Below, piece by piece: positions 594-32,959 of a DNA stretch of 36,463 nt. The stretch's first letter is position 1. Every line of letters begins with the position of its first letter. Origin of the DNA: Opitutia bacterium. Lineage in GTDB: Bacteria; Verrucomicrobiota; Verrucomicrobiia; Opitutales; Seribacteraceae. Location of the stretch: assembly GCA_002726435.1 (NCBI GenBank), contig PBSV01000038.1, positions 1-36,463 on the forward strand, read 5' to 3'. The translations under genes were made by a program, and so were the position numbers. The notes beneath the pieces were generated by a model. It did no database searches. It was not told the DNA's origin and saw only the letters and a list, made by a program, of their open reading frames with translations.

Positions 594-1841
594 TTACCAG
601 TTGTAACAGCTGATGGCCTCGAGCTCGCGGACAAACATTTGCTTGCCCGACAAGGCGGGGTAGGACCAGGTGGGGGACTGGGAAATCTTCCGTTCTTCTA
701 AAATAATCAATTTTTCCGGGTTTGCATCGATCCGGTAGAGGGTGCCGTCTTCATCGAGGGCAAGAATTTCCTCCCCGTTGGAAACCATGGACATGTACTT
801 TCCGAAGGATTCACTACTGATCCACTTAGTCTCCCCGGTCCGCATGTCGAGGCAGGTCATGCGCTGCTTTCTCAGGTGCAGGTAGCAGTAGTCCCCGATC
901 ACGACCGGGCTGGACATGTAGGCCTCCTGTTTATTTTGCCATTGATCGGACACCAAGAATCCACCGGAATTTTTTCCGAGTCCGACGAGCATGCTTTTTC
1001 CACCGTAACAACTGGTGAACACGGAATTTTCCAGAATTGTGGGGGTGAGAATATTCATTCCGCGGTATGCTTTTACCGGTTTTTTCCAGAGGACTTTTCC
1101 ATCCGGTGGGTTGACCCCGACCAAATCGGTACGGGTCTGCACCACGAGTTGTTCAATTCCTCCCAGAGTCGCAACCGTGGGGGAGGAAAATGCGCAGTTG
1201 TATTTTTCCCCCTTCACGGTGAGGATGCGCCAGATGGATTCTCCGGTCCGCTTGTTCATTTTTACCAGTCCGGTTGCGGCCTGTACATAGAGGTGGTCCC
1301 CGAGGACCATGGGGGAGCAGACAAATCCAAAGGTGGGAAGTGGGGAACCGTACCTTTTCACAAAGTCGACGCTCCATTTTTCTTTGCCGCTCTCCGCATC
1401 CAGACAGACCAGATAATCCCGCATGCCGCAGACATAGAGATTTTCTCCGTCAAAGAGGGGAGTCGAGCGTATCCAACTGCCGTTTTTCCAGGCAAAAAAT
1501 GGAACACTCATTGAACCGGGCCATTGAGTTTCCCATTTTTGGCGTCCGGATGAGCGGTCAAAGGCACGGGCGATTTCATATTCCCCCTTGGTCTCGACTG
1601 TAAACACAAGATTTTTGGAAACCACGGGCCCGGAATATCCCTTGGCAATTTCCCTTGTCCAGGCGAGGTCCAGTTTCTCCCCGGAGATTCCGGATGGCCA
1701 GGGGGAACCATTTCTTACCCAGCCGTCGCGGGTGGGTCCGCGCCACTGAGACCAGTCGAGTTCAGAACCGTAAAGAGAATACCGGCCGGGGAAGCATCCC
1801 AGGAAAATGAGCAGGGCGGGCAGAAGAAATTTTACATTCAT
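594..1841 (-). CDS. PQQ-like beta-propeller repeat protein, exported (signal peptide)
   Basis: WSQWRGPTRDGW start of propeller, repeated DxxSGxxxW blades; likely start ATG at 1841 (MNVKFLLPALLIFLGC) overlapping the upstream stop as ATGA; ORF track start 1874 is probably too long. Confidence 0.85.
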   Translation of the reverse strand: MNVKFLLPALLIFLGCFPGRYSLYGSELDWSQWRGPTRDGWVRNGSPWPSGISGEKLDLAWTREIAKGYSGPVVSKNLVFTVETKGEYEIARAFDRSSGRQKWETQWPGSMSVPFFAWKNGSWIRSTPLFDGENLYVCGMRDYLVCLDAESGKEKWSVDFVKRYGSPLPTFGFVCSPMVLGDHLYVQAATGLVKMNKRTGESIWRILTVKGEKYNCAFSSPTVATLGGIEQLVVQTRTDLVGVNPPDGKVLWKKPVKAYRGMNILTPTILENSVFTSCYGGKSMLVGLGKNSGGFLVSDQWQNKQEAYMSSPVVIGDYCYLHLRKQRMTCLDMRTGETKWISSESFGKYMSMVSNGEEILALDEDGTLYRIDANPEKLIILEERKISQSPTWSYPALSGKQMFVRELEAISCYNW

Positions 1842-2878
1842 GGCTTTTGAAACAGGTAGTGACTGACCCACCACTCCTGGCCCCCGGCAAATCCAAAGGT
1901 CTCGGCGCAGGCGAGAAAAAACATGCGCCAGCGGTGGTAGGTGCGATGGGCCTCGGCGAGGGAGAGGTCTTTTTGAAAGAGGCGAAGAATGGATTCCTTT
2001 TCCCGGTCGATGTTTTCGAGCCAGTGCTCGGAAGTACGGGCGTAGTGCTTGCCGGACCAGCGCCAGCGCTTTTCCAGTTCCAAACTTCCACAGATTCGCA
2101 AAAAGAGTTCGTCCGCGGGCATCGTTCCCCCGCTGAAGAAGTGGGTGGACATCCAGTCGTCCTCCCCGTCGACCTCAAAGGGATAGGAGGTGGAACGGTG
2201 GCAAAAAACATGGGTGAATAATTTTCCGCCCGGGTTGAGCCAGGAATGAATCCGGCGGAAGAGTTCGCGGTGGTTGCGGACATGTTCGAACATTTCCACC
2301 GAGACCAGCCGGTCGTAGGTGGAATCAGTCTCGAAGGCATTGACGTCCTCGGTCAGTACGCTGAGGTTGTCGAGTCCGCGCTTGCGGGCCTCGCCGAGAA
2401 TGTATTCGCGCTGGGAATGGGAATTTGAAACCGAGGTGATGGAGGACCCGGGGAAGTGCTTCGCCATCCATAGGGAGAGGGAGCCCCATCCGCACCCGAG
2501 TTCCAAAATCTTCTGTCCGTCCGCGAGTTGGGCATGTTCGCAGGTCAATTCGAGGGCCCGGTCCTCCGCCTGGTCGAGGGAAATGCCCGGGGAATCATAG
2601 TGACAGCTGCTGTATTTCAGGTTTTTGCCAAGGGCATGGCGGTAGAATTCGGCGGGGACTTCGTAGTGTTGCTCGTTGGCTTTTTCAGTGAGGACCGCCA
2701 TTGGGGAGGCATCGGAATCGAGGAGGTATTTTTCCGCCAGTTCGGCGTTGGCCTCGCAGTCTGCGGTGAGGCACTGGCGGAGTCGTTTTTGACAGAGGTT
2801 GCGAATTCCGGCACGGATTAAAAAGTCCGGGGCCAGTCCGCGCTCGCACATTTCAATTGCAAAGGAAGTCAGGCTCAT
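1838..2878 (-). CDS. SAM-dependent methyltransferase (cyclopropane-fatty-acid-synthase / coclaurine N-methyltransferase-like)
   Basis: ILELGCGWGSLSLWMAK SAM motif, EHYEVPAEFY-like region (NEQHYEVPAEFY), VSVEMFEHVRNH; ATGA overlap with upstream DUF1295 gene. Confidence 0.85.
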   Translation of the reverse strand: MSLTSFAIEMCERGLAPDFLIRAGIRNLCQKRLRQCLTADCEANAELAEKYLLDSDASPMAVLTEKANEQHYEVPAEFYRHALGKNLKYSSCHYDSPGISLDQAEDRALELTCEHAQLADGQKILELGCGWGSLSLWMAKHFPGSSITSVSNSHSQREYILGEARKRGLDNLSVLTEDVNAFETDSTYDRLVSVEMFEHVRNHRELFRRIHSWLNPGGKLFTHVFCHRSTSYPFEVDGEDDWMSTHFFSGGTMPADELFLRICGSLELEKRWRWSGKHYARTSEHWLENIDREKESILRLFQKDLSLAEAHRTYHRWRMFFLACAETFGFAGGQEWWVSHYLFQKP

Positions 2879-3675
2879 GAGGTGGAATCCGGGGATTTGG
2901 GGAACCAGGGAAAAAAGGCGGAGGTCCGCTCAAGGTAGGAGCGGTAGGCATCCCCGGAAGCATCGAGCTTGCGGGCTTCCACGAAGGGAATACCGGTGAT
3001 TTTAGTGAGGAATATATAAAGGAGCACCGGGAGCAGGAGCAACCAAATCCCACCGGCGGAGTTCCACCCAAGTAGAAGGTATCCCATCCAAAGCACCCAC
3101 TCGAAAAAATAATTCGGGTGACGGGAATATTTCCAGAGGCCGGACTCGCACACTTCCCCGCGGGTCCGTCCGGGGGCTTGCTTGAATTGACTGAGTTGCT
3201 TGTCCGCCAGTGTAAGCCCGACAAATCCGGTGATCCATACAATCACGCCGAGATGGTCGAGCAATCCGAGCTCGGATTGATTCCTCGCAAGAATTAAAAA
3301 GGGGGAGGCGAACAGAACGACCCAAAATGCCTGGACTTGAAAAAACAGCAGAAATCCAAGGTTTGCCCGTTCGCCCATATACTCGCGCAAGTATGCATAG
3401 CGGGCATCTTCCGGCTTGCCCCAGCATCTGCGCAGCAGGTGCGTGCCCAACCGGATCGACCAGACCGCAAGCAGTCCCTGAAGCAGGGCAAGACGGCGGG
3501 GGTCGCACTGATCGGACAGGGAGACGAGATAGAACAGACCCAGTATGCCCACCCCGTAGGACCAGAGAACATCAACATAGGAGGTGTTGTTTATCCGCAG
3601 GGCGACCAGCCATCCAATGAGCATCATGACGGAGGCAGCGGCCTGTCCGTATAATAAAAGTTCAATCGTATTCAT
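2875..3675 (-). CDS. DUF1295 family integral membrane protein (steroid 5-alpha-reductase C-terminal-like)
   Basis: Multiple TM segments; YSRHPNYFFEWVLW and GIPFVEARKLD(A)SGDAYRSYLERTSAFFPWFPK motifs characteristic of DUF1295. Confidence 0.9.
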   Translation of the reverse strand: MNTIELLLYGQAAASVMMLIGWLVALRINNTSYVDVLWSYGVGILGLFYLVSLSDQCDPRRLALLQGLLAVWSIRLGTHLLRRCWGKPEDARYAYLREYMGERANLGFLLFFQVQAFWVVLFASPFLILARNQSELGLLDHLGVIVWITGFVGLTLADKQLSQFKQAPGRTRGEVCESGLWKYSRHPNYFFEWVLWMGYLLLGWNSAGGIWLLLLPVLLYIFLTKITGIPFVEARKLDASGDAYRSYLERTSAFFPWFPKSPDSTS

Positions 3676-4201
3676 AGTACTCCGGAGTGGTGCAGAATTG
3701 AAGGTGTAAATAACGGAAGATTATTCCTGCAATTCCCCATTCCACGGCCACCGCGAGTGCGGAGGTCCAGTCCTGGGTGAAGGAGAGAACTTCCAGTTTA
3801 TCCCCTGAATAATATGCGAGGGCTCCCCCCACTGAAAATCCAATGAGGCAGCGCCAGCGGTGATCGAGGAACCACTCGAATACAGGACGGAGCATGAGGC
3901 CGAAATTCAACCACAAAATCAACATCCAGAGAGGAACTCCGAACAGTCCGGGGTAGTCACCAAATGTGATGAATCCAAATTTTACGAGGCAGGCATCCCC
4001 GACCAGACCAATGAACAAGGAGCTTACAATAAAAGGAAACAGAATAAATAAACCCTGGGTATAAATCGAACGCACCGCCACTATCGCCAGTCCAAGAAAT
4101 GGAAGAACCAGGGGGAGGGGACTGAGGGAGGAGAGCACGCAGGCAAACCAGGCGACCTGAAAAATCACAATGTCGAAGAGCATGGACTTGTTGAATTTCA
4201 T
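3662..4201 (-). CDS. DUF2878 family membrane protein
   Basis: FGVPLWMLILWLNFGLMLRPVFEWF...GFSVGGALAYYSGDKL pattern; position in the conserved cluster; ATG at 4201 overlaps upstream stop. Confidence 0.8.
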   Translation of the reverse strand: MKFNKSMLFDIVIFQVAWFACVLSSLSPLPLVLPFLGLAIVAVRSIYTQGLFILFPFIVSSLFIGLVGDACLVKFGFITFGDYPGLFGVPLWMLILWLNFGLMLRPVFEWFLDHRWRCLIGFSVGGALAYYSGDKLEVLSFTQDWTSALAVAVEWGIAGIIFRYLHLQFCTTPEYYEYD

Positions 4202-5466
4202 CCGGGAAAGCCACGGGCGAGCCGGCACTCGGGCTTGGCCAGTAAAAGATGAACATCCCCGGTGTATCCCTCTTCAAATCCGGCCTCGCAGTAACAAAGA
4301 TAATATTCCCACGCCTTGCGGAAGCGCCGGTCATAGCCAAGGGAATCAATTTTTTCCTCGTTCTCCAAAAACCGAACTTTCCACTCCCGCAGGGTACGGG
4401 CGTAGTGGTAACCAAAATCATACAGGCTGGCCGGGCGGAGGTCGGACTTTTCGACCGCGGCGGAGATCATCGCGGAAGCGGAGGGCACACAACTACCGGG
4501 AAAAACCCGGGTGCGGATATAGTCGACTTCTTTGAGGTATCGCTTGTAGCGGTGATCGGGCATGGTAATTCCCTGAATCATTGCCGCCCCGTCGGGGAGA
4601 AGAAGGTCGGAAATTTTGGAGAAATAAACCGGAAGGAATTCATGGCCCACCGCCTCGATCATTTCAATGGATACAATCCGGTCAAATTTTCCCGAGAGTG
4701 CACGGTAATCTTCTTTTACAATTGAAACCTGTCCGGTCCATCCGTTCTTTTCGATCCGTTGGGAAGCATATTCGAACTGGCGGTCGGAAATAGTGGTGGC
4801 GGTAAGGGAGGCACCGGTCCGTTCGGCCAGCCGCTGGGCAAATCCGCCCCATCCACAACCAATTTCGAGTACGCTGTGGTGGGATTTAATTTCAAGTTGA
4901 TCAATGATACGGTCGTACTTTGCAAGGGAAGCCTGTTCCAGGGTATGATTCTCAGATTCAAAAATACCACAGGAATAAGTCATGGTTGGATCGAGCATTA
5001 ATTCGTAGAAGTCGTTTCCGAGGTCGTAGTGCAGGGCGATATTTTTACGGCTCCCCTGCAGGGTGTTTCGTTGAGTCAGGAAATAAGCCGCCAGGGCGGC
5101 TTTATTGAGCAGGGTGGCCCATCCTCCCTCGAGTCCATCCATTACTTTTTGATTGCGAAGAAAGAGGCGGAAAAAACTGACCAAGTCCGGGGTGGACCAG
5201 TCCCCGTCGGCAAAACTATCGGCCACTCCGAGCGAACCCCCGAGGCAGGCCTTGCGAAAAAATGCGGGGTTGGAAATTCGAATTTCTGCGTTGGGTTGTT
5301 CGGTGGAGGGAACTCCCATGGTGATGGTTTGAGCAGGACTTTTCAGGAGTAGGGAGCCGCGGTCAATTTTGCCAAGGTTGGAAACCAGTAGACGCTCGAA
5401 AAATCCGGACTTTCCGGTGGTATCCACCGGGATGGTGGAAACTGGTTCGGAAGCTTGCTTATTCAT
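4198..5466 (-). CDS. Cyclopropane-fatty-acyl-phospholipid synthase family methyltransferase
   Basis: NIALHYDLGNDFYELMLDPTMTYSCGIF, VLEIGCGWGGFAQRLAERTGA, FDRIVSIEMIEAVGHEFLPVYF motifs; likely start ATG 5466 (MNKQASEP). Confidence 0.95.
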   Translation of the reverse strand: MNKQASEPVSTIPVDTTGKSGFFERLLVSNLGKIDRGSLLLKSPAQTITMGVPSTEQPNAEIRISNPAFFRKACLGGSLGVADSFADGDWSTPDLVSFFRLFLRNQKVMDGLEGGWATLLNKAALAAYFLTQRNTLQGSRKNIALHYDLGNDFYELMLDPTMTYSCGIFESENHTLEQASLAKYDRIIDQLEIKSHHSVLEIGCGWGGFAQRLAERTGASLTATTISDRQFEYASQRIEKNGWTGQVSIVKEDYRALSGKFDRIVSIEMIEAVGHEFLPVYFSKISDLLLPDGAAMIQGITMPDHRYKRYLKEVDYIRTRVFPGSCVPSASAMISAAVEKSDLRPASLYDFGYHYARTLREWKVRFLENEEKIDSLGYDRRFRKAWEYYLCYCEAGFEEGYTGDVHLLLAKPECRLARGFPG

Positions 5467-6235
5467 GGCTGGTGGAGGAAGAGGCATGTTTGGGGTGCGG
5501 ATAAAATGGACATCCCTTTAAACGAAGAATCAGGGCGTGCCAGTAGATACCAAATGTGATTCGAAAAGTGAGGAATGGAAAGCGCAGCAGTGACCATCCG
5601 AGATTGAATGAATTGATTGGTTTTTTGCGCAGGTTCAAGTGGGCGGAAAAAAAGATTTCGTTGGCCCGTTTCAGGATCATATCAACCCGGAGTTTTTCGC
5701 CTGGTTTTTTAAAGCGCCAGTCATATTCCACGCCCATGTCGATGAAGGGAGAAACATGAAATTCTTTTTTGAATTCCTGCTTGGTCTGGTTGGAATCACT
5801 GGGATCGGAATCCGACCAGGAAAATGCCTTGGCGTATTTTTCATGCCAGGGTGTATTGGTAATCTCAGCCATCAAGGCAGTGGGTTGGTCACGGCTTTCA
5901 TTCCAGGCATAGTAAAAGGTTACCGGATTGAAGCAGTATCCAAAGGTTCGAAGATGGGTCAAAATGGAAATGGGTCCGGTTACGGGTCTGCCAATTTGTT
6001 TGCTCATTGTCGAGCGAACCGCGTCTTCCAAAGAAGAGACCTCCGGCTTGTGGTAATCGGACCGACGGAAGCAGGAGAGGTTGGATCCAGCAGTTGACCA
6101 TAACCAATGCCCCTGAAAGACCTCGTTTAATTCATCCAGAAATAAATGAGGCATATATAGCCGGTAGCGTAAATGATGAGACTTGGGAGATTTTCGATGA
6201 TGACTGACTTCACCAAAATAGAGCGAACTATTCAT
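5459..6235 (-). CDS. DUF1365 family protein
   Basis: LYFGEVSHHRKSPKSHHLRYRLYMPHLFLDEL; GPISILTHLRTFGYCFNPVTFYYAW; HVSPFIDMGVEYDWRF; start ATG 6235 overlaps upstream stop as ATGA. Confidence 0.95.
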   Translation of the reverse strand: MNSSLYFGEVSHHRKSPKSHHLRYRLYMPHLFLDELNEVFQGHWLWSTAGSNLSCFRRSDYHKPEVSSLEDAVRSTMSKQIGRPVTGPISILTHLRTFGYCFNPVTFYYAWNESRDQPTALMAEITNTPWHEKYAKAFSWSDSDPSDSNQTKQEFKKEFHVSPFIDMGVEYDWRFKKPGEKLRVDMILKRANEIFFSAHLNLRKKPINSFNLGWSLLRFPFLTFRITFGIYWHALILRLKGCPFYPHPKHASSSTSHE

Positions 6236-7470
6236 CCTAATTTTGCCCCGAATGCATCGCATACCCGGAGTCCGCTGGTCAATCCATCCTCATGAAATCC
6301 ATAACCCCAGTATGCCCCGCAGAAAGAGATACCCTGGTTGCGGATAAACCGGCGGTGTCCCTCCTGGGCTTTCCGCCGCCCGAGGTGATAAGTGGGGTGG
6401 GAAAAATGATAGTCAGCATGGTGAAGTTTTGGATCAATGCGTTCCTTTTGATTCAGGCTGACACAGAAGGGTTCCGAGGTGGGCAGGCTCTGTAGAATGT
6501 TCATGTCATAGGTAACCAGGGCCTGGGCACTTTCCTCACGGGGTAAATATGCATTCCAACTTGCCCGGGCGGACCGGCGCCTGGGAAGATGAGAATCGTC
6601 ACGGTGTAAGGAAACCATGTTTTTTTCGTAGGGAAAGGCTTCGAGAAGGGCAACTTCTTCCGCACTTGGGGAATGAAGAAGTTGAAGGGATTGATCGGCA
6701 TGGCAGGCGAGAATGACTTCATCAAAAACTGGTTTTGTCCCGTCCGGAAGAGTAAGTTCGACACCCTGTTCAATTCTTTCGACCTTTTTGACCGGGGTAT
6801 TTAAACACAGTCGATTGCCGAGGATTGGAAGGATTTTTTCGACATAGGTCTTGGATCCACCTTTTACCACCCGCCAAACTGGGCGGTTGTTGGCCTGGAG
6901 CATTTGATGATTGGAAAGAAAATCTGTGACAAATTCCATCGGAAAACTCTGAAATCGACTGGTGGAACAGGACCAAAGGGCGGAACCAAGAGGGAGCAGG
7001 AAATTTTCCTGGAAGCGGGAACCGAATTTCATTCGTTCCACGAATTGCCCAACGGTTTCAGTAGATCTACTGGCCTGGTCCGCGGCTTCATGAAATCGAA
7101 GAATGTCACGGACCATGCCCCAGTGCTTAAAATCTACCAGGTTTTTAAGATGTCCAAATAATCCGACCAAATTTTCGCCATTGTATTCCAAGCCGAGTCG
7201 TTCGGACCGTACGGAAAATCCCATGCGGGTGGGCTGGGAATCGACTCCTAATTGATCAAGTAGAGTGAGAAAGTTGGGGTAGTTTTCACGGTTGAAAACA
7301 ATGAATCCAGTATCGACTTGAAAACTCCCACTATCTCCCTTCGCGGTTACTGTATTTACATGACCACCCGCTTTGCTGCCTGCTTCGAACAGAGTAATTT
7401 CATGGTTTTTACCCAATAAGTAAGCACATACCAAGCCGGATATCCCCGACCCAACAATTGCAATTCTCAC
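6232..7470 (-). CDS. NAD(P)/FAD-dependent oxidoreductase (amine-oxidase-like, COG2907 type)
   Basis: N-terminal dinucleotide fold IAIVGSGISGLVCAYLLGKNHEITLFEAGSKAGGHVNTV; C-terminal GISFCGAYWGYGFHEDGLTSGL. Confidence 0.92.
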   Translation of the reverse strand: MRIAIVGSGISGLVCAYLLGKNHEITLFEAGSKAGGHVNTVTAKGDSGSFQVDTGFIVFNRENYPNFLTLLDQLGVDSQPTRMGFSVRSERLGLEYNGENLVGLFGHLKNLVDFKHWGMVRDILRFHEAADQASRSTETVGQFVERMKFGSRFQENFLLPLGSALWSCSTSRFQSFPMEFVTDFLSNHQMLQANNRPVWRVVKGGSKTYVEKILPILGNRLCLNTPVKKVERIEQGVELTLPDGTKPVFDEVILACHADQSLQLLHSPSAEEVALLEAFPYEKNMVSLHRDDSHLPRRRSARASWNAYLPREESAQALVTYDMNILQSLPTSEPFCVSLNQKERIDPKLHHADYHFSHPTYHLGRRKAQEGHRRFIRNQGISFCGAYWGYGFHEDGLTSGLRVCDAFGAKLG

Positions 7471-7488
7471 GGGGGGGCAGGAACCAAA

Positions 7489-8406
7489 TTAGCTCGGAGG
7501 CTGGGCTTTTTCAATCACCCAAGCGGGAACCGGACGCAAATCACGAACTAATCCAAATACACTCATCAGACGGAGAATGAAATAAGTCAGGTCAAATTCA
7601 CCCTTAAAAAATCCCTGTCGGGCGGAGCCGGGGAAGAAATGATGGTTGTTGTGCCAACCTTCCCCGAATGCAAAGATTGAAACAATCCAATTGTTCCTGC
7701 TTTCATCCTTGGTGTTAAATCTTCTTTTGCCAAACATGTGAGTGAAAGAATTAACCGCAAATGTGGCATGGTAGAGGAAAATCGTGGGCACGAGAAATCC
7801 CCAAATCAACATTTGCATATTCGATAACCCCGTGAGGGAATAAAACCAGGAAATTTCAGGGGCAAAATAACACGCGAGTGCAAGCAACAGAACAGGTATC
7901 CAATCAAAACGGTTGAGAAAGCGTAATTCCTTGATTTTTAACCAGTCGGGAATTTCCTTCAGGAAAGTGGGCACCGCATAATCGGTCATGAACCAAAGGG
8001 TATGACTCCAGAAAAAGCTTTTCGAGTGAGGAGAGTGCACATCCTCCTCGGTGTCAGAGTGTCTGTGATGTCGTCGATGATGGGCGGCCCACCAGAGGGG
8101 TCCTCGTTGTCCGGAACTGCATGCGATAAAAGCACCGATAAACTGAACAATCCGGGAAGTTTTAAAGGACCGGTGAGAAAAATAGCGGTGATAAAATGCG
8201 GTGATCGAAAACATTCGAATGCTGTAGGAAATCAACGCAACAGCCAGACACCACAATGTAAATGGGTAAAAAAAGGCTAGTAATGTGAACAAATGGATCA
8301 ATACATAGGGCAAACACCTAAACCACTCAACACGACCTTCAGAACCCTTGGGACTTTCGAAGGTTTCGGGAGGTGGTAGTACCCATTTAGAGATAGAAAA
8401 AGACAT
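7489..8406 (-). CDS. Acyl-lipid/acyl-CoA delta-9-type fatty acid desaturase
   Basis: Three histidine boxes HRYFSH, HHRRHH, HNNHH; likely start ATG at 8406 (MSFSISKW), the ORF track extends to a TTG at 8448. Confidence 0.92.
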   Translation of the reverse strand: MSFSISKWVLPPPETFESPKGSEGRVEWFRCLPYVLIHLFTLLAFFYPFTLWCLAVALISYSIRMFSITAFYHRYFSHRSFKTSRIVQFIGAFIACSSGQRGPLWWAAHHRRHHRHSDTEEDVHSPHSKSFFWSHTLWFMTDYAVPTFLKEIPDWLKIKELRFLNRFDWIPVLLLALACYFAPEISWFYSLTGLSNMQMLIWGFLVPTIFLYHATFAVNSFTHMFGKRRFNTKDESRNNWIVSIFAFGEGWHNNHHFFPGSARQGFFKGEFDLTYFILRLMSVFGLVRDLRPVPAWVIEKAQPPS

Positions 8407-8504: not shown

Positions 8505-9449
8505 TTATTCCTCCGGGTCGAGAGCAAGGGACAACTCGAGCGGGCTCATTTTAGTTTTTCCGCGAAGATCAGTACCGACAAGCTTGTCGAGTTTCCGAAA
8601 ATCAATTTTTCCATTTTGCATGAGAACTGCACGAAGTTTTCGTAAACCAAGAGATTCTAGTTGTCTGACCCGTTCGCCGGACACATTAAGTACATCTGCA
8701 ATGTCGTCCAGTTTCATCGAGTCGTCCGCTCCAATACCAAAACGCATTGCTAAAACTTTTCTTTCCCGGTTATCGAGAAAGCTGAGTGCGACTGACACAT
8801 CATCGCCAAGCGATCCATCTTCACGGTAGGACTGATTAAGTTCTTCCTCTTCAGTCATCACATCCCCGAGAGTTTGGTTAGAATCTTCACCGAGCGGTTC
8901 ATCAATCGAGAGCGAGTTGGTGGGGGCGAATTTTACCCGGTTGGATAAATTACGGTCATTACCAAGAGCTTTATTAACTTCTTCCTCGGTTGGTATGCGT
9001 CCAAGTTCGACTTGAAGTTGTGAACGGACCAAATTTTCTTTTCTTTTGCCCTGTGATACATCATGGGGAACGGCGACTGCACCCGACATTTTGCCAATCA
9101 GTCTTTGTATTCTTTGACGAATCCACCATGCGGCGTAAGTGCTAAGTTTAATCCCTCTGGTGTGGTCAAATTTATCAAGCGCAACCACAAGGCCCTGTAT
9201 ACCCTCAGCCATTACATCTTCCATGGACACACTGGTTTGGCGAAACTTGAGAGCAATGGAAGCAACCAGACGAATGTGTCTTTCAATGAGTTCTTTTCTT
9301 GCTTCGTCGGAACCTTCTGCCATTTTCTGGAAAAGAATGTCACACTCCTCTTTGGTGGGGGGTGGCATGCGTGAACGATCAGAGATAAACCGGCCAATTG
9401 GGTCTAAAGAATTCTTATCAGGCGTAAAGTTTGATTTGTTTGATACCAT
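8505..9449 (-). CDS. RNA polymerase sigma-70 family factor (RpoD/group 2-3-like)
   Basis: Region 2 ELIERHIRLVASIALKF...GIKLSTYAAWWIRQRIQRLI; region 4 ERKVLAMRFGIG...LNVSGERVRQLESLGLRKLR. Confidence 0.93.
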   Translation of the reverse strand: MVSNKSNFTPDKNSLDPIGRFISDRSRMPPPTKEECDILFQKMAEGSDEARKELIERHIRLVASIALKFRQTSVSMEDVMAEGIQGLVVALDKFDHTRGIKLSTYAAWWIRQRIQRLIGKMSGAVAVPHDVSQGKRKENLVRSQLQVELGRIPTEEEVNKALGNDRNLSNRVKFAPTNSLSIDEPLGEDSNQTLGDVMTEEEELNQSYREDGSLGDDVSVALSFLDNRERKVLAMRFGIGADDSMKLDDIADVLNVSGERVRQLESLGLRKLRAVLMQNGKIDFRKLDKLVGTDLRGKTKMSPLELSLALDPEE

Positions 9450-9459
9450 AGTACTTAAT

Positions 9460-9494
9460 AAAACGATTCCATCTCAAAAAAAGATCATCGTTTT
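9460..9494. repeat. Inverted repeat AAAACGAT...ATCGTTTT (8-bp arms, nested ATCT/AGAT) in the leader of the sigma factor gene
   Basis: Read directly; arms 9460-9467 and 9487-9494, ending 11 nt before the sigma start codon. Confidence 0.6.
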
Positions 9495-12282: not shown

Positions 12283-13842
12283 TTAAGCGGCCAGGCTTTT
12301 TTTGAAATTACCCAAATTTTCCCTGGCACTTTCCTTGCGGTCCACAATTGGACGGGGGTAGTCTTTTCCAATCAGGCAGTTTGAGGAAATTTGAACGGAT
12401 TCGGGGGCCAGGTGGGGTTCGAAAATGTACTTGGGGGGAAAGTCTTTTAACTCGGGGATCCAAAATTTGATGAAGGAGGCGGATTTGGTTTCAGCATTGA
12501 GGCTTGATTTTGCGTCTGGACAGGGATTGTAGAGCCTGAAGTAGGGCATTGAAAAGGGAGCCACTCCGGAGAGCCACAACCAGTTGGCATTGTTGAGTGC
12601 CCAATCGCTGTCGAGAAGTTTGGCCTCAAAAACATCGCGCCCATGTTTCCAGTGCTGCCAAAGTTGTCCACGGGTAAGGAAACAGGAAACTGCATGCCTG
12701 CCGAGGTGATGCATCCAACCGGTTGCTTCGAGTTGCCTCATCATTGCGTCGATGTATGGAAATCCGGTCATTCCTTTTTCCCAGGCAGAAAGCTTGTTTT
12801 CATCTAATTCTCCCCAGTCAATCTTTTTGCACATGGAGTTGCCGTTCACCTGGTCCCAGTTTTCCACGGACCTTGACAAGACATAAAACATTTCACGAAA
12901 CAGGAGCTGTCCGTGGAGGGATTCCGGCGGCTTGGTGAAGTCATCTTTTCGGTGGCATTTTTCACATTCCTTCCAAAGTTGGCGAACTGACAGACACCCG
13001 GTGCTAAGGTAGGGGGATAATCCTGTGGTGCTTGGTTCTTGAGGGTCCTGGCTTTGATTGGTCGAGCAAGTTTTCGGTTTCCTGAACTGATTGACAAATT
13101 CTGGACGGGAGGAAACTTTTTCTTTAAGCCGGCGTAGAGCTACGGTCTCACCACCAATGAAATAGCACTCATGTTCCGGGGTAGGGAATGGAATTCGTGT
13201 CCTGATCTCAGGAATTGAAATGGTCGGAAAGGGCAGGGGATGGGAGGAAAATTCTTTCGGAAAAGAAGGAATTGCGGAGGGCACCGGCAAAGGATCGGGC
13301 ACCCGATAAAATCCGTGTTCGTCGAGGCCAAAATATTCCGTGAATAACTTGACAGCATCCTTCATGGATTTCGGCTGTTTGAAGTTCGGGGCGGAAATTA
13401 CGGATTCAAGATCGGTCAGGGTATGCACCGCCGGAAAAAATTCAACCGGGGTGGGAGAGGATGAATCTGTGCCGGAAAACAAAGCTTGGATTGACTGGGT
13501 GACCTGCAAACCATGGGGTTCCGAGCAGTAATCCGAAAAAAGACCGATCGGATATTCGCTGTACTTTTTAATCTCCTTGAAGATCTCCGAGGGATTTCCG
13601 AAGGCAATTAATAGTCCATGGTTTTGCAGGGCTTGCAATTGAGAGTCGAGGTCAGAAAGACACTCAATTAAAAACCTCATCCGATTCGGGGAAATCTTGT
13701 CGAGTTCGGATCCCACAACCGCAGGGTCGAGAATGAACAAGGGTAAAACGGATTGGGAATCCTTATCCTTGCAAGCTTCCAACAAGGCAGGGTTGTCGTG
13801 TAAACGAAGACACTTTCGAAACCAAACAACTGATGTTTTCAC
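12283..13842 (-). CDS. Animal-type (6-4) photolyase / cryptochrome family protein
   Basis: SVVWFRKCLRLHDNPALL; GGETVALRRLKEK; TGFPYIDAMMRQLEATGWMHHLGRHAVSCFLTRGQLWQHW...VFEAKLLDSDWALNNANWLWLSG; PPKYIFEPHLAPE...IGKDYPRPIV. These resemble the animal cryptochrome/(6-4) photolyase consensus more than bacterial class I CPD photolyase. Confidence 0.88.
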   Translation of the reverse strand: MKTSVVWFRKCLRLHDNPALLEACKDKDSQSVLPLFILDPAVVGSELDKISPNRMRFLIECLSDLDSQLQALQNHGLLIAFGNPSEIFKEIKKYSEYPIGLFSDYCSEPHGLQVTQSIQALFSGTDSSSPTPVEFFPAVHTLTDLESVISAPNFKQPKSMKDAVKLFTEYFGLDEHGFYRVPDPLPVPSAIPSFPKEFSSHPLPFPTISIPEIRTRIPFPTPEHECYFIGGETVALRRLKEKVSSRPEFVNQFRKPKTCSTNQSQDPQEPSTTGLSPYLSTGCLSVRQLWKECEKCHRKDDFTKPPESLHGQLLFREMFYVLSRSVENWDQVNGNSMCKKIDWGELDENKLSAWEKGMTGFPYIDAMMRQLEATGWMHHLGRHAVSCFLTRGQLWQHWKHGRDVFEAKLLDSDWALNNANWLWLSGVAPFSMPYFRLYNPCPDAKSSLNAETKSASFIKFWIPELKDFPPKYIFEPHLAPESVQISSNCLIGKDYPRPIVDRKESARENLGNFKKSLAA

Positions 13843-13849
13843 GGGTGGA

Positions 13850-15301
13850 TTATGCCTGTGGTCTTAAGGTGGCGAGCGCGGCAAGTGCCCGGTTTCGGGC
13901 ATCGGAATGATCCACGCAGGGCCCTGGGTAATTACCGCCAAGGTCAACCCCGCTGGATTCAAGCAGATCCGCCGGTGCCTCCCAGGGACGGAATGTCCAT
14001 TTAGGGGGGAGGTTTTGAAGGGAGGGTATCCATTGGCGGGCATAAATTCCGCGGGTATCGAATTTCTCCCCCTGGGTGATCGGGTTGAAAATTCGGAAAT
14101 AAGGGGCAGCATCAGCCCCACAACCGGCGGCCCACTGCCAGCCCTGGGTATTGCTGGCGAGGTCGGCATCCACCAAAGTGTCCCAAAACCAGCGGGCACC
14201 CTCCTGCCAGGGAAGGAGAAGATGTTTGACCAAAAAAGAGGCAACAACCATGCGAACCCGGTTATGCATCCAACCAGTCTCATAGAGTTGCCGCATCCCC
14301 GCATCGACCATCGGATATCCGGTGTTGCCAGATTGCCAAAGTTTTAAATTTTCCGGGTCGTCCAACCATGGAAAATCGGCATATTTTGGGCGGAGTGGTT
14401 GATCGGGGATGGAAGGAAAGTGATAAAGAAGATGATAAGAAAATTCTCGCCAGCCGATTTCGACGAGAAACTTGTTTTCTCCCCGGTGACTTCCTTCCTT
14501 GTCGGCCTGCAAAACTGCCTGGCAAATTTGGCGGGGGCTGACCAGTCCCCATGCAAGGTAAGGAGAAAGACGGGAAGTGCCATCCACCGAGGGTATGTTT
14601 CTTCGGGTGGCATAGGAGTGAGTCACTTCATCCACCGTCCGTTCAATCATTTGATGAGCCGCTTCTTCCGAGACCACCCAATGCTCGGCAAATTTTTCAT
14701 GCCAGTTTTGAGTATTGAGAAGGGAGAGGTCATCCAAGCTCGATTCCGCAGTGGAAGTTTTGAAAAAGGGCAACTTGGAAGTGTTGTAAACGAGAGGCTC
14801 GCGGTAGATGATTGGGCGGGACTTTCTCCAGTATGGAGTGAATACCTGGAAGGGTTTCCCAGACCCGTTTTTCATTTCCCAGGGTTCTTGAAGGAGGGAA
14901 GAATTAAAGGACTGGGTTTCAATCCCCGCCTGATCGAGTGATTCCTCTACTTTCTCCTGGGTGGAGATGCCGGACGGGTCATAGGTTCTGCCATAATACA
15001 CTTCATCTGCACGGTACTTTTTGGCAAGCCGGGGTAAAATTTCAGCGGCACTGCCCTTGCAAAATAATAGTCGTCCGCCTAATTTTTCAATTGATCCTGC
15101 AAGACTGGAGAGTGAGTGATGGAGCCACCAGCGGGAAGCGGATCCGGGAGCCCAGCTTCCCCCTTCCTGCTCGTCCCAGATAAAAACCGGGATAATTTCT
15201 TTGTTCCGCTCAAAGGCATAGCCAAGTGCGGGATGATCGAGAAGTCTGAGGTCTTTGCGAAACCAAACAATTGATTTGTTTGATGAGGCTTCAGCAATCA
15301 T
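13850..15301 (-). CDS. phr: Deoxyribodipyrimidine (CPD class I) photolyase
   Basis: SIVWFRKDLRLLDHPAL; IGWREFSYHLLYHFP; TGYPMVDAGMRQLYETGWMHNRVRMVVASFLVKHLLLPWQEG; NTQGWQWAAGCGADAAPYFRIFNP. Confidence 0.96.
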   Translation of the reverse strand: MIAEASSNKSIVWFRKDLRLLDHPALGYAFERNKEIIPVFIWDEQEGGSWAPGSASRWWLHHSLSSLAGSIEKLGGRLLFCKGSAAEILPRLAKKYRADEVYYGRTYDPSGISTQEKVEESLDQAGIETQSFNSSLLQEPWEMKNGSGKPFQVFTPYWRKSRPIIYREPLVYNTSKLPFFKTSTAESSLDDLSLLNTQNWHEKFAEHWVVSEEAAHQMIERTVDEVTHSYATRRNIPSVDGTSRLSPYLAWGLVSPRQICQAVLQADKEGSHRGENKFLVEIGWREFSYHLLYHFPSIPDQPLRPKYADFPWLDDPENLKLWQSGNTGYPMVDAGMRQLYETGWMHNRVRMVVASFLVKHLLLPWQEGARWFWDTLVDADLASNTQGWQWAAGCGADAAPYFRIFNPITQGEKFDTRGIYARQWIPSLQNLPPKWTFRPWEAPADLLESSGVDLGGNYPGPCVDHSDARNRALAALATLRPQA

Positions 15302-16005
15302 TGATTGAGTCGAAGCTGGGAAAGGCCGGCGTCCACCTTCAAAACTTGTCCGGTGATTGAACTGGCTCCCTCGGAATGAAGGAAAGATATGGTGGAGGAA
15401 ATTTCATTGACCGCGGGAATCTTTTTCAAGGGATGACGGCTCTCGATCATCGGAATCATTTTATCTCCACCAACCATTGCCAATCCCATTTCCGTTGGAG
15501 TGAGGGTGGGAGCAACCACATTGACCCTGACTTTGGGAGCGAGGTCAGCAGCGAGGGCAATGGCAAACCCTTCCAGGGCAGATTTCGCGGATGAAATGGC
15601 ACAGTGATTGGGCAGACCAGTTCGTGCCGCCACGGAGGATAGAAGGACTATTGAACCATCCAGTCTTGGGAGTAAGGACTGAATTAAGGTAAATGCATCA
15701 AGAACACTGGTTTGAAATGCTTCGATCATTTGTTCAGGCTTCAAACGCTTGATTGGGCCGAGAATTACTTTTCCGGGGCAAAAAGTAAAAGCGTTGATAG
15801 AATCAGGGAGTTGATCGGCGAACGATTCAGGGGATTTGATATCACCACTAATCCAGGTGCAGCCGGGGACGGGTTCAGCGGGTGCGGTTCGCGACAGAGC
15901 AAACACATTCTGGTTATCCTGGATTGATAAATCAACCAAACTGCGGCCGATTCCACGGGACGCCCCGACGATTAAATGAGATTTGTTTTGAGTAGTGTTT
16001 TCCAC
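15298..16005 (-). CDS. Short-chain dehydrogenase/reductase (SDR)
   Basis: LIVGASRGIGRSLV; NAFTFCPGK; IVLLSSVAARTGLPNHCAISSAKSALEGFA; VNVVAPTLTPTEM; start GTG, 4-nt overlap with downstream phr. Confidence 0.9.
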   Translation of the reverse strand: MENTTQNKSHLIVGASRGIGRSLVDLSIQDNQNVFALSRTAPAEPVPGCTWISGDIKSPESFADQLPDSINAFTFCPGKVILGPIKRLKPEQMIEAFQTSVLDAFTLIQSLLPRLDGSIVLLSSVAARTGLPNHCAISSAKSALEGFAIALAADLAPKVRVNVVAPTLTPTEMGLAMVGGDKMIPMIESRHPLKKIPAVNEISSTISFLHSEGASSITGQVLKVDAGLSQLRLNQ

Positions 16006-16043
16006 AGGTAAAGATATCGATTGTTGGAGGGGATTAGATCATT

Positions 16044-18061: not shown

Positions 18062-18088
18062 CCCAATAAAAAAGGATCAAACTTGATT

Positions 18089-19366: not shown

Positions 19367-19387
19367 ACCCTTTACCCTCCTCCGACC

Positions 19388-19834: not shown

Positions 19835-19861
19835 GCAGAACGGAGAAGGTAGGAATTTTCA

Positions 19862-22227: not shown

Positions 22228-23474
22228 TTGCCCTGGCCGACTGCAACAATTTTTACGTCTCCTGTGAACGTGTCTTCCGTCCATCGCTCGAGAAAAAGCC
22301 GGTGATCGTTCTTTCCAACAACGACGGATGCGCCGTGGCCCGTTCCAATGAGGCCAAGGCAATTGGTATTCGAATGGGAGCTCCTTATCATCAGATTAAA
22401 AAAACCTGTGAATGGAATGGAGTGAGGGTTTTTTCTTCCAACTACGAATTATACGGTGACATGTCCCGCCGGGTAGTTTCCGTATTGTCGCGCTTCGCTC
22501 CTGAAATCGAGGTTTATTCGATCGACGAGTCCTTTCTCGACCTCAGCGGATCGGATCAGCCCCTGAACCTGAGCAAGCGGATGCGGGCAACGGTTCTGCG
22601 CTGGACCGGGATTCCAATTTCGGTGGGCCTGGCCCCGACCAAGACTCTTGCCAAACTGGCCAATCGCTTGGCTAAAAAAACCGGTTCCGGTTGCATGCAG
22701 GTTGATCCGGATGACCAAACCGCCCTCAAGTCCGTAGCGATTGACGAGGTCTGGGGAGTGGGTCGGCGACTGAGTGCCCGGCTTCATCGAGTCGGGGTGA
22801 GGAATGCGTTTGAATTTGCCCGGGCTCCTTCTTCCCTGGTGCGCACGATCGGTGGTGTGACTCTCGAGCGTACTCAGCGAGAACTTGCTGGAATCCCCTG
22901 TCTGGAGATGGAGGAAATTCCTCAACCCCGAAAAAACACCTGCTCTTCCCGTTCCTTTGGTAAGCCGGTGATGGAATTGGAGGAATTGGAAGAAGCCGTG
23001 GCGAATTATACGGTCAAGGCGATCCGCAAAGTACGTTCCGAGCATTCGTTGGCTTCCGGATTGCAGGTTTTCATCATGACCAACCGCTTTCGCGAGGACC
23101 AGGCCCAATATTCAAATTCCCGCACCCTTGTTTTTGATGAACCCACGGACGACCCAATCCGAGTGGTGAAGAATGCGAAGCGCTTACTTCGTTCGATTTT
23201 CCGGTCCGGGTATGCCTACAAGAAAGCGGGAGTGCTTTTACTCGACCTGGTCTCTTCCAGCTCCCGTCAAGGTTTACTCTTTGAGGAGCATGGAGATACG
23301 CGCCGGGTTGAATTTGTTGATGCGGTGGAGGAGGTGGCTGCCCGCTATGGTGGAAATCATGCATTTTGGGGAGGGCAGGGGATTAATAAAAATTGGAGTA
23401 TGCGCCGGGAAATGCGCACCCCCCGCTACACTACGAGCTGGGAAGATTTGGTCAGCGTCGGAGGAAAAACTTAA
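22224..23474 (+). CDS. umuC: Y-family DNA polymerase UmuC
   Basis: IALADCNNFYVSCERVFRPSLEKKPVIVLSNNDGCAVARS; VYSIDESFLDLSG; GIPISVGLAPTKTLAKLAN; GTG start overlapping umuD stop. Confidence 0.96.
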   Translation: MIALADCNNFYVSCERVFRPSLEKKPVIVLSNNDGCAVARSNEAKAIGIRMGAPYHQIKKTCEWNGVRVFSSNYELYGDMSRRVVSVLSRFAPEIEVYSIDESFLDLSGSDQPLNLSKRMRATVLRWTGIPISVGLAPTKTLAKLANRLAKKTGSGCMQVDPDDQTALKSVAIDEVWGVGRRLSARLHRVGVRNAFEFARAPSSLVRTIGGVTLERTQRELAGIPCLEMEEIPQPRKNTCSSRSFGKPVMELEELEEAVANYTVKAIRKVRSEHSLASGLQVFIMTNRFREDQAQYSNSRTLVFDEPTDDPIRVVKNAKRLLRSIFRSGYAYKKAGVLLLDLVSSSSRQGLLFEEHGDTRRVEFVDAVEEVAARYGGNHAFWGGQGINKNWSMRREMRTPRYTTSWEDLVSVGGKT

Positions 23475-24787
23475 TTGGCGGCCCAGTCGAAGCAGGCAAT
23501 TTCCTGGCCGTTTTTTGCGACTAAGTAGCCACCGGCGAGGGCGGGTCCATTCCAGCAACGGACATCACTGAGTAATTGTCCGGAATAGACTTCAGTGAAC
23601 TGGGCGGGTTCCGCCCGGACCACGCTCAGAACTCCGGTATTTCCAAGAATGAGCAAGTGCTTATCCGCCAGAAAAATTTTTCCATACCCGTATTTTTCCC
23701 CGCGCCACTGCAACTCTCCATTCTTGGCATTCAAACAGGTCAGGGAATTTTCATTGAAACCATAGAGGAAACCATCTTTGAGGACGGGGCTGGAAAATTT
23801 GGTTTTAAAATTCTTTGATTTCCACGCGGATGAAATTGTATAGCCGGACTTCGATTTTTCTATTTTCAGACATTCGGCGCCCTTGCCATAACCCGCGGAC
23901 AAGAGCAGTCGGTCATTGTCCAACTGGGTAGGTTGGGCAATCAATGCATTATTTAGAAAGATTTTCCACGGATGCTCCCAGCGGGTTTTTCCATTTTTCG
24001 GATTGAGGGAACCGACTTTGCCCGCCACCGCAACAAGTAGATGTTTTTCTCCAAAGAATTCGGCAAGGACTGGAGATGGATAAACTCCTGAACCGCGAAA
24101 ATCCGACCTCCAGACCAATTTTCCGGAGTGAAGATCATGAGCCCGGGCAGCACTTTTTTCACCCCCATGGTTGAGAATTATCAAATCATTCCAAACCAAG
24201 GGAGAGCCGGAAATTCCCCATTCGGGAAATTCATATTCTTCTTCAATTGCTTGTACGCGCCATTCAAGCAAACCGGTTTTTGCATCGATTCTCGCCAGAG
24301 TGCCATTGGAAAAAATCACATAGAGTTTTCCCTGGTGCAGGGTGGGGGTGGACCTCGGCCCGGTCCCGCTCATCAAGTCATTCCACTTGGTGGAAAGACT
24401 AAACCGCCAAATTTCCTCACCATCGTTTAAGTCTCTCGCAAATAATGTTTCCTCTTCGCCTTGTTGTTCGATTGTGAAAACCCGGCTTGAATCGAGGATA
24501 ATTGAGGAGTGACTCAATCCACAGGGAATCATCCACCGGAGTACCGGCTTTTTCTTCCAGGCAACCTTTACTGTTTGAAGGGGGATTTTCCCGTCCCGGT
24601 TGGGCCCGCGAAATTGAGGCCATATGTGCTTTACGGAGCGCAGTGGTACTTGGGAATCAACGAAGACCTTTTTTTCACTTTCCGGTTTCCCGGAAAGTAA
24701 AACCTGCGGAACCATGCCACCACGCATTTCCATATTGATGCATCCGCACAGAGACAGACATCCAATGGACAATAAAAAAGCCTTCAT
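23471..24787 (-). CDS. PQQ-like beta-propeller lipoprotein
   Basis: Lipobox LSLCGC; WPQFRGPNRDGK; repeated GxxxW blades; ends CFDW. Confidence 0.87.
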   Translation of the reverse strand: MKAFLLSIGCLSLCGCINMEMRGGMVPQVLLSGKPESEKKVFVDSQVPLRSVKHIWPQFRGPNRDGKIPLQTVKVAWKKKPVLRWMIPCGLSHSSIILDSSRVFTIEQQGEEETLFARDLNDGEEIWRFSLSTKWNDLMSGTGPRSTPTLHQGKLYVIFSNGTLARIDAKTGLLEWRVQAIEEEYEFPEWGISGSPLVWNDLIILNHGGEKSAARAHDLHSGKLVWRSDFRGSGVYPSPVLAEFFGEKHLLVAVAGKVGSLNPKNGKTRWEHPWKIFLNNALIAQPTQLDNDRLLLSAGYGKGAECLKIEKSKSGYTISSAWKSKNFKTKFSSPVLKDGFLYGFNENSLTCLNAKNGELQWRGEKYGYGKIFLADKHLLILGNTGVLSVVRAEPAQFTEVYSGQLLSDVRCWNGPALAGGYLVAKNGQEIACFDWAAN

Positions 24788-24800
24788 TTAAAAAGCCGGA

Positions 24801-25346
24801 TTATCCGGCTAAGGCTTCTTCAATTACTTTAATCAGTTTTTTTGAAGAGGGGGAGGTCAAACTGCCGAATCGATCAATTGGAGATCCGTCTTTTCCCAGC
24901 AGGATTTTACCAAAATTCCACTTTATGCTTCCCTTGAGCGGTCCATTGTCCCCGATGATTGCTTCGTAGAGCGGGTGTCGATTGGGGCCGTTAACATTAA
25001 CTTTTGCATACATCGGAAAACTGACGCCGAATTTAGTGGAACAGAATTCTTTTATCTCATCCAACGATCCTGGTTCCTGTCCACCGAACTGGTTGCAGGG
25101 AAATCCACACACCACGAGTCCCTGGTCTTTGTATTTTTGGTACAATTCTTCCAACCCCTTGTATTGCCTGGTGAATCCGCACCTCGAGGCAACATTGACC
25201 ATCAAAATTACTTTCCCCTTGTGTTCGGAAAGAGTCGTTGCTTTTCCATCGATGGTGGTCAATTCATGATCATAGAGAGATTTTCCGGAGGCGGTCGAAG
25301 CAAGGGAGCACATAATTAAACAGGTTATAAGGTTGAGGTGTTTCAT
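24801..25346 (-). CDS. Glutathione peroxidase family protein, probably exported
   Basis: Signal-like N-terminus; MVNVASRCGFTRQYKGLEELYQKY; VVCGFPCNQFGGQEPGS; IKWNFGKILLGKDGSPIDRF. Confidence 0.93.
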   Translation of the reverse strand: MKHLNLITCLIMCSLASTASGKSLYDHELTTIDGKATTLSEHKGKVILMVNVASRCGFTRQYKGLEELYQKYKDQGLVVCGFPCNQFGGQEPGSLDEIKEFCSTKFGVSFPMYAKVNVNGPNRHPLYEAIIGDNGPLKGSIKWNFGKILLGKDGSPIDRFGSLTSPSSKKLIKVIEEALAG

Positions 25347-25912
25347 TATTTTTTGGTTGTGGGTGGATCAGATTTTTTATTTTTCAATTGAATGGGCAAG
25401 TGTACTTCGGATCGTTTGAATGGACCGGGAATGAACGGACCATTCCAGTAAACTCCATAAGCATTCCCATTTTTTTCATAATGGTCATTTTCACGAATCC
25501 AATTTTCTAATTGATCGAGGTGCTTGAAAAATCGTTCACTGGAATATCCCCCCCGTATTCCAATTGCCACGACGAGGCGTGGTTTCATTTTTTTTACCTC
25601 CACCTCCTTGTTGGACTGAAAATCCTTATTCCTGTCACTTTGGCCAACGAAGAACCTCATTTTACCAGGGTTGATATCTCCTTCCACGGGAGTGGTCATT
25701 GAAAGGTCATTGGCACTGATGAAACGAAAAAGTTTGCGGAACAATCCATTGTTATCCTCAAAATAAGACCCATCAAAGGATGATTGCAGGGCAATACGCT
25801 CAGGTAATTCAAGAACCTTAATTTCACCAACTGGGGTTTTTTCGTGCATCGAATCGTAGGCTTGGCAAAAGGTGTGGGTGAATAAGAGTATCAGCGTAAG
25901 GATATATTTCAT
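25346..25912 (-). CDS. SOUL heme-binding family protein, exported
   Basis: Signal peptide; LFRFISANDLSMTTPV; YWNGPFIPGPFKRSEVHLPI; 1-nt overlap with gpx (TAATG). Confidence 0.9.
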   Translation of the reverse strand: MKYILTLILLFTHTFCQAYDSMHEKTPVGEIKVLELPERIALQSSFDGSYFEDNNGLFRKLFRFISANDLSMTTPVEGDINPGKMRFFVGQSDRNKDFQSNKEVEVKKMKPRLVVAIGIRGGYSSERFFKHLDQLENWIRENDHYEKNGNAYGVYWNGPFIPGPFKRSEVHLPIQLKNKKSDPPTTKK

Positions 25913-26021
25913 AAAGCGTAACTATTTAAAGAGCGAAAGTGTTCGAGTTTTGGATCATAGAAACAAAAACTTTGGGAACAACAGAAACACTCTGCAATAT
26001 GAAAGGGAGGTAAATGAATCG

Positions 26022-32868: not shown

Positions 32869-32959
32869 AAGGTTAATTGAACCTCTGTTTGCCTTCTCCT
32901 CAAGCAAGAAAAAGATTTCTTGCGTGACCGATGCAAAAAAAATGACAGGCTAAGGAGTT

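Follow-up and report, generated by a model that had tools for sequence, protein, structure and literature searches.

The window analysed here is a 36,463-nucleotide stretch of DNA (contig PBSV01000038.1, assembly GCA_002726435.1) from an Opitutia bacterium, a member of the Verrucomicrobiota that we take to be marine, judging from the record names of its relatives, which are ocean bins. On its minus strand lies a run of closely packed genes that is probably a furan-fatty-acid operon induced by photo-oxidative stress. The biosynthetic part is of a known kind and is commoner than an initial annotation of the sequence had held. What appears to be new is the wiring: a sigma-70-family gene within the operon and promoters of the type used by extracytoplasmic function (ECF) sigma factors of group ECF11, with no ChrR, in the Verrucomicrobiota. 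Gene content, gene order, family membership, active-site type, clade and a conserved promoter box were read directly from the sequences; the order of the reactions is taken from experiments on Rhodobacter sphaeroides and Rhodopseudomonas palustris.

Furan fatty acids are antioxidants of the membrane that scavenge singlet oxygen. In the literature examined, bacterial furan fatty acids are known experimentally from two alphaproteobacteria. UfaM methylates cis-vaccenate in phospholipid, and UfaD, a flavin adenine dinucleotide (FAD) protein that resembles phytoene desaturases, forms a methylated diene (Lemke 2020, PMC7380195). UfaO, which supplies the furan ring with its O2-derived oxygen, belongs to DUF1365, a family whose role the initial annotation had called poorly defined, and FufM adds a second methyl group (PMC7380195).

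Organization of the operon

The initial annotation described a complete operon of eight minus-strand genes between positions 594 and 8406. The eight open reading frames hold with their order, starts and overlaps, and a profile search of each protein, which the annotation had proposed, upheld every family name in Pfam. Its reading of the genes as a lipid-modification operon of the furan-fatty-acid or photo-oxidative-stress kind, in a bacterium outside the proteobacteria, is supported by the Ufa families and their order. The operon was not complete, however: the sigma-70-family gene at 8505-9449 belongs to it as a ninth gene, in front of the others. The gap between this gene and the desaturase gene is 98 nucleotides (nt) in the window; of the relatives, 19 have a gap of -1 to 3 nt and two have one of 17 nt, and it is the tight spacing in the relatives that makes the sigma gene part of the operon. 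In order of transcription, the genes are as follows.

8505..9449, minus strand: sigma-70-family factor with regions 2, 3 and 4 (Pfam Sigma70_r2, r3 and r4), like RpoD, RpoS and cyanobacterial group 2; first gene of the operon
7489..8406, minus strand: membrane fatty-acid desaturase of the stearoyl-CoA desaturase type (FA_desaturase, PF00487), proposed source of the monounsaturated acyl chain used as substrate
6232..7470, minus strand: FAD oxidoreductase, UfaD-like (acyl-chain desaturation to a methylated diene; Amino_oxidase PF01593 / NAD_binding_8 PF13450), in the position of RSP1091 and RPA2571 (PMC7380195)
5459..6235, minus strand: DUF1365 protein, UfaO-like (O2-dependent furan formation; PF07103, 227 bits against a cut-off of 25)
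4198..5466, minus strand: CMAS-family methyltransferase, UfaM-type (PF02353, 257 bits; A240/Q266; separate clade)
3662..4201, minus strand: small DUF2878 protein (PF11086, 84 bits)
2875..3675, minus strand: DUF1295 protein, steroid-5-alpha-reductase-like (PF06966, 220 bits; PF02544, Steroid_dh, 41 bits), constant partner of MT2
1838..2878, minus strand: second METHYLTRANSFERASE (MT2) of the CMAS family, FufM/LIME1/coclaurine-N-methyltransferase-like by solved-structure match; proposed second ring methylation
594..1841, minus strand: PQQ-type beta-propeller (PQQ_2, PF13360, 130 bits) with a lipobox-like signal (LLIFLGC); last gene, lineage-specific

Six ATG starts (6235, 5466, 4201, 3675, 2878 and 1841) give the overlaps 6235/6232, 5466/5459, 4201/4198, 3675/3662, 2878/2875 and 1841/1838, and the FAD gene starts with GTG at 7470, 18 nt past the desaturase stop; longer in-frame starts are possible for several of the genes. 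In relatives of the same family the gene order is kept as far as the contigs extend, with protein identities of 44-86% (one DUF2878 at 33%), so the arrangement is not due to chance.

The UfaM-type methyltransferase

Is this an ordinary cyclopropane-fatty-acid operon, in which the CMAS protein is a ring-forming Cfa and the FAD and DUF1365 proteins are accessory? Databases label such CMAS genes as cyclopropane fatty acid (CFA) synthases, and the best solved match of the window protein is the Escherichia coli CFA synthase 6bqc, the order of CFA synthase and coclaurine methyltransferase being the reverse of that seen with MT2. The active site argues otherwise. With residues numbered as in E. coli Cfa, positions 240 and 266 are histidines in 8/8 reference enzymes of the CFA family (E. 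coli Cfa and seven others). In the UfaM-type class, made up of 95 genes drawn from relatives, named genomes and plasmids, residue 240 is alanine (serine once) and residue 266 is glutamine in all 95. The window protein has A240 and Q266 in place of the H240/H266 pair of a canonical cyclopropane fatty acid synthase. A quick tree puts the class on one side of a branch with the reference CFA proteins on the other (SH-like approximate likelihood ratio test support 99). On the replaced histidines and the separate clade we reject canonical cyclopropane synthesis and, as the class is also nearly always linked to furan-specific families, we regard the cyclopropane operon as very unlikely.

The CMAS protein can thus be classed by its sequence as UfaM-type and distinct from Cfa, an assignment made through linked homologues rather than R. 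sphaeroides UfaM itself. Thirteen genomes of the group have just two strong PF02353 proteins each, both within the operon, which leaves those genomes with no separate canonical Cfa. The contrast of A240/Q266 with the histidine pair may serve as a residue test by which UfaM-type enzymes can be told from cyclopropane synthases, the name under which they are annotated.

The desaturase and the UfaD- and UfaO-like proteins

The only solved matches of the desaturase are the mammalian stearoyl-CoA desaturases, SCD1 4ymk and 4zyo. It has PF00487 together with the histidine boxes of this type, which are conserved in 70 homologues. FabA scored above the cut-off in one of 12 genomes searched, and that genome lies outside the window's family; the bin carries two desaturases. 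With FabA absent from the family, unsaturated chains are presumably made by desaturases, and the stearoyl-CoA-type enzyme probably makes the substrate of the pathway.

The FAD protein is 36-42% identical to plasmid-borne homologues from proteobacterial ufa clusters, and its gene adjoins the ufaO-type gene with a 4-nt overlap. Its likeness to phytoene desaturases and HpnE, along with the Steroid_dh match of DUF1295, could mean that the FAD desaturase, the SRD5A-like DUF1295 protein and the methyltransferases act on a terpenoid, sterol or carotenoid and not on phospholipid acyl chains. No terpenoid genes were identified among the window genes checked, however. DUF1365, the UfaM-type protein and the fatty-acid desaturase are acyl-chain enzymes, and a likeness to phytoene desaturases is a property of UfaD itself; we find the terpenoid alternative scarcely plausible.

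Absolutely conserved residues of the UfaO-like protein include H12, R14, N127-T128-P129, K157 and S162-P163, and its AlphaFold 2 model has a predicted local distance difference test (pLDDT) score of 94.4. In nine other Verrucomicrobiota genomes, DUF1365 lies within an open frame of 654-1179 residues. These long frames suggest, on sequence grounds, fusions of pathway steps comparable to the plant UfaM-UfaD fusion AT3G23510.

Clusters of Aeromonas, Plesiomonas and Legionella also have DUF2878 at this place. With regard to DUF2878, deletion of VC1123 in Vibrio cholerae changes porin expression (PMC12971978). The propeller at the end of the operon is found solely in the window's own relatives. A paralogue lies at 23471-24787; both propellers are exported and of PQQ type, have lipoprotein-like signals and stand last in a putative light-stress operon.

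The second methyltransferase

The best solved relative of MT2 is the coclaurine N-methyltransferase 6gkv, at 240 bits against 93 bits for the best CFA synthase. LIME1/AT4G33110, which belongs to the coclaurine-methyltransferase-like group, provides the link to FufM. Solved structures place MT2 in the coclaurine-methyltransferase clade, and FufM is joined to that clade through the literature on LIME1, its reported plant relative (PMC10940516). With MT2 apparently in the clade of FufM, a dimethyl furan product is likely.

Alternatively, the operon may yield only a monomethyl furan acid, or a methyl-branched monoene or diene, with MT2 acting on another lipid or on an amine as the plant coclaurine N-methyltransferases do. 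The nearest solved relatives of MT2 are indeed N-methyltransferases, and no role in furan synthesis is known for DUF1295. Yet MT2 is 46-50% identical to homologues from alpha-, beta- and gammaproteobacteria, and among 80 named MT2 loci, mostly of Proteobacteria, it is accompanied by all of ufaD, ufaO and ufaM in 59; the reported kinship of FufM with LIME1 points the same way. We consider this alternative unlikely and retain the dimethyl furan as the expected product. DUF1295 accompanies MT2 in 71/80 loci, and its RHPNYF motif is invariant in 105 sequences. As a guess, it may reduce the reactive ene-dione that arises when a furan acid scavenges singlet oxygen.

Promoters and sigma factors

The features that bear on control of the operon are these.

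9461..9487, minus strand: ECF11/RpoE-type promoter box TGATC-N17-CGTTTTAT, 38 nt ahead of the sigma gene start
16014..16041, minus strand: promoter box TGATC-N17-CGATAT before the SDR-photolyase operon; one match in the window against 0.03 expected
25934..25957, minus strand: candidate promoter box TGATC-N17-CG, 45 nt before the SOUL gene; window only
31825..32382, minus strand: ECF sigma factor, the genome's best R. sphaeroides RpoE-like ECF factor (2q1z, 78 bits) and candidate regulator
30497..31720, minus strand: presumed anti-sigma factor of 407 amino acids, not ChrR (weak NCBIfam anti-sigma match, residues 8-72)

A box of the form TGATC[CT]-N16-CG lies 35-38 nt before the sigma gene in 21/21 relatives, the window included, these being all with a readable upstream region. 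Ahead of the SDR-photolyase operon, a TGATC-N17-CG box stands at 34-36 nt in 10/10, again counting the window. The background is 62 TGATC box sites in 969 kb, with the operon and photolyase sites counted in. Relatives are not independent evidence of conservation, and a looser box (TGATC-N15-19-CGT) is not enriched in the window over shuffled sequences, so that its meaning rests on position and conservation. The box before the SOUL gene was missing in two relatives checked (present in 1/3, the window), and in other phyla a box upstream of the operon was found at 2/61 loci in a scan around the first gene only. The two conserved promoters are of the TGATC-N16/17-CG form of the ECF11 sigmaE regulon. 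In both, the -10-like element ends about 8 nt before the start codon, which would make the transcripts leaderless or nearly so.

The best NCBIfam matches of the sigma-70-family protein are cyanoRpoD, RpoD and RpoS at about 170 bits, all under cut-off, with RpoH at 110. In every one of 12 genomes, R. sphaeroides RpoE finds its best match in a homologue of the ECF factor at 31825-32382; in eight of them this gene shares a contig with the ufa operon, about 12-26 kb away. The window's factor is 30-35% identical to the ECF factors of ChrR type; among solved structures, SigK scores slightly above RpoE. The ECF gene is followed in 11 other genomes by a homologue of the 407-residue protein with 39-66% identity, so that the pair is kept in 12 genomes. 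C214, C279, H242 and H256 are invariant in this protein, which fits no known family; a single-sequence AlphaFold model of it (pLDDT 36) was unusable. A DUF2237 gene (32479-32907, minus strand) lies directly upstream of the ECF factor.

We propose the following scheme, in which the substrate and product, the inducing signal, the sigma cascade and what DUF2878, DUF1295 and the propeller do are inferred. The ECF factor would be released from its partner by singlet oxygen or by a stress akin to it. Once free, it would use TGATC-N17-CG promoters to transcribe two operons, sigma-desaturase-ufaD-ufaO-ufaM-DUF2878-DUF1295-fufM-propeller and SDR-photolyase, and the sigma-70 factor borne by the first would widen or amplify the response. 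The desaturase would form a monounsaturated acyl chain in the membrane, the UfaM-type enzyme would methylate it, shifting the double bond in the process, and the UfaD-type enzyme would yield a conjugated diene. The UfaO-type enzyme would then insert one oxygen atom from O2, closing the furan ring, and the FufM-type enzyme would add the second methyl group. If the desaturase is a delta-9 enzyme, the ring should lie at C8-C11 (7M7/7D7 from 18:1, 7M5/7D5 from 16:1) and not as in the known 9M5/9D5. A bolder reading, which we hold to be less likely than not, joins three things: the 407-residue protein would be a new type of anti-sigma factor, responsive to singlet oxygen and taking the place of ChrR in marine Opitutia; it would work in a two-step sigma cascade that has its second sigma factor in the furan operon; and the organism, its substrate coming from a delta-9 desaturase, would make furan acids with the ring at a position (7M7/7D7) undescribed for bacteria in the literature examined.

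Several points weigh against a stress-induced furan operon. The ChrR feature of the ECF11 regulon is missing: ChrR was rejected as the regulator, since the cupin PF12973 is absent in 18/19 genomes of the group and the 407-residue protein aligns with ChrR at an hhalign probability of 0.3%. Autoregulation of the ECF factor by a TGATC box was likewise rejected, with no match in 12 regions upstream of the ECF and anti-sigma genes. The source is contig 38 of a 1.6-Mb bin that is 62% complete, so statements of absence rest on the relatives. Orthology to the Ufa and FufM proteins is drawn from family, gene order and linked proteobacterial homologues. A fold search with the UfaO-like model gave no solved match at E <= 0.001, with weak likeness to fatty-acid-binding and nitrobindin-like barrels, and for this reason no cofactor is proposed.

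The absence of ChrR, the ECF gene without a box, the sigma-70-like factor in the operon and the non-independence of the related sequences would also suit a reading in which the furan chemistry is right but control is of a general stationary-phase or housekeeping kind, the TGATC boxes being bound by another factor. Against it, the same box, equally spaced and placed, precedes both the sigma gene and the photolyase operon in every relative, and the neighbours are of the ECF11-regulon type. We think general control improbable; the evidence for photo-oxidative control, namely the promoter box, the ECF factor and the photolyase and peroxidase neighbours, is stronger than that offered in the initial annotation.

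Putative light-stress genes and other neighbours

Two groups of genes in the window belong to the putative light-stress neighbourhood.

12283..16005, minus strand: SDR (15298-16005), photolyase (13850-15301) and second photolyase/cryptochrome-family gene (12283-13842), by Pfam; proposed second unit of the regulon
23471..25912, minus strand: SOUL haem-binding protein (25346-25912), exported glutathione peroxidase (24801-25346) and the paralogous PQQ propeller (23471-24787), by Pfam

The SDR and photolyase genes are upstream of the cluster in relatives also. In two relatives the SOUL, glutathione peroxidase, propeller, SDR, photolyase, sigma and ufa genes are contiguous; in the window they all fall inside 26 kb. 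An AlkB-like 2OG-Fe(II) oxygenase gene (26022-26633, minus strand; PF13532) is a further repair-type gene near the photolyases, and an overlapping pair of UmuD-like and UmuC-like genes for a translesion polymerase (21709-23474, plus strand) stands amid the same neighbourhood, judged from sequence alone. Divergent from the ufa operon, and kept there in most relatives, are genes for a metallo-beta-lactamase-fold exonuclease-like protein and an ATP-dependent DNA ligase (9629-12270, plus strand). A plus-strand run at 16218-21636 (zinc alcohol dehydrogenase, sugar isomerases, RbsD/FucU-like mutarotase, aldo-keto reductase and amidohydrolase) resembles deoxysugar (fucose/rhamnose) catabolism, this too from the sequences alone.

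Distribution and comparison with known systems

The initial annotation had presented the setting as exceptional outside the proteobacteria and both the desaturase and the propeller as additions. DUF1365 was found in 48/194 sampled genomes of the phylum, however, and the six-gene core (desaturase, FAD, DUF1365, CMAS, DUF1295 and MT2) is present in many Gammaproteobacteria, in Methylophilaceae and on Acinetobacter plasmids, being complete in 39 of the 80 named loci. The desaturase is itself a recurrent member (43/80), so of the two supposed additions only the propeller, confined to the window's relatives, stands. Nor is the gene order special: desaturase-FAD-DUF1365-CMAS-(DUF2878)-DUF1295-MT2 is found as in the window in Xanthomonas, Stenotrophomonas, Kangiella, Aquimonas and the Acinetobacter plasmid pYH12138-1, although it is permuted in Methylophilaceae. 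The clusters with the window's order have no sigma-70 gene ahead and no propeller behind, and their proteins are clearly diverged (31-50% identity for the Acinetobacter plasmid). In trees of both CMAS and MT2 the window's group forms one clade apart from other members of the order such as Pelagicoccus; proteobacterial bins are closest to it in the CMAS tree (support 83). The trees suggest that the cluster as a whole may have been acquired by lateral transfer.

If the reading is right, a pathway to the dimethyl form is widespread in Verrucomicrobiota, Planctomycetota and many Gammaproteobacteria, including Xanthomonas and Acinetobacter plasmids, and bacteria of the sunlit ocean may supply furan fatty acids. 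It would also link to the pathway two families without an assigned function, DUF1295 through the FufM-type methylase and DUF2878 through the core, and would point to an ECF11-like response without ChrR.

In R. palustris, RPA2571-2570-2569 are ufaD-ufaO-ufaM in the order of the window, and the same four enzyme families are present (PMC7380195). The second methylase fufM (RPA0924) is elsewhere in that genome, whereas in the window the gene for the second methylase is inside the operon. The R. sphaeroides genes RSP1091-1090 and RSP2144 are under ECF11 sigmaE (PMC7380195). Compared with these systems, the window has additional genes: a sigma-70 gene comes first, a desaturase gene stands ahead of the core, and DUF2878 and DUF1295 lie within it; ChrR is missing. 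Rhizobial plasmids keep DUF1295-MT2 together as a unit, with ufa genes and ChrR close by.

Vibrio, Aeromonas, Plesiomonas and Legionella have the order FAD-DUF1365-CFA-DUF2878 in a regulon of the light/photolyase type, with PhrR in Vibrio (PMC12971978, PMC10012899). In Legionella, DUF1295 comes next as well; the Plesiomonas and Legionella loci examined have neither the desaturase nor the second methyltransferase. An NTF2-SDR-FAD-DUF1365-CFA-DUF2878 cluster is also present in CP125156.1, a record of 5.37 Mb under the name of a Klebsiella pneumoniae plasmid, probably a mislabelled chromosome.

The RpoE(2)-ChrR (ECF11) regulons of R. sphaeroides, Shewanella and V. cholerae have photolyase, SDR, peroxidase and ufa or cfa targets, as the window does (PMC6852236, PMC4336711, PMC5241685). 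Shewanella RpoE2 promoters are TGATCC-N16-CGTATT, with start sites mapped for two, and the regulon includes photolyase, SDR, cfa and a periplasmic glutathione peroxidase (PMC4336711). The window boxes match them in the 17-nt spacing of TGATC and CG, in position and in target genes; they are also similar to the TGATC-N18-CGTAT consensus of V. cholerae (PMC5241685). The anti-sigma factor of the window is not ChrR, however, and the location of the operon and the phylum differ. A second sigma factor, rpoHII, is downstream of RpoE in Rhodobacter, but the one embedded here is like RpoD and RpoS and not RpoH.

A green alga offers a parallel co-induction of DUF1365, DUF1295 and methylases by singlet oxygen. 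The SAK1-dependent singlet-oxygen genes of Chlamydomonas include CFA1, CFA2 (also listed as the coclaurine N-methyltransferase CPLD27), DUF1365, DUF1295, DUF2177, SOUL1/2 and GPX5 (PMC4067076). The algal genes are dispersed and under another regulator, whereas in the window or on rhizobial plasmids most of these families are next to one another.

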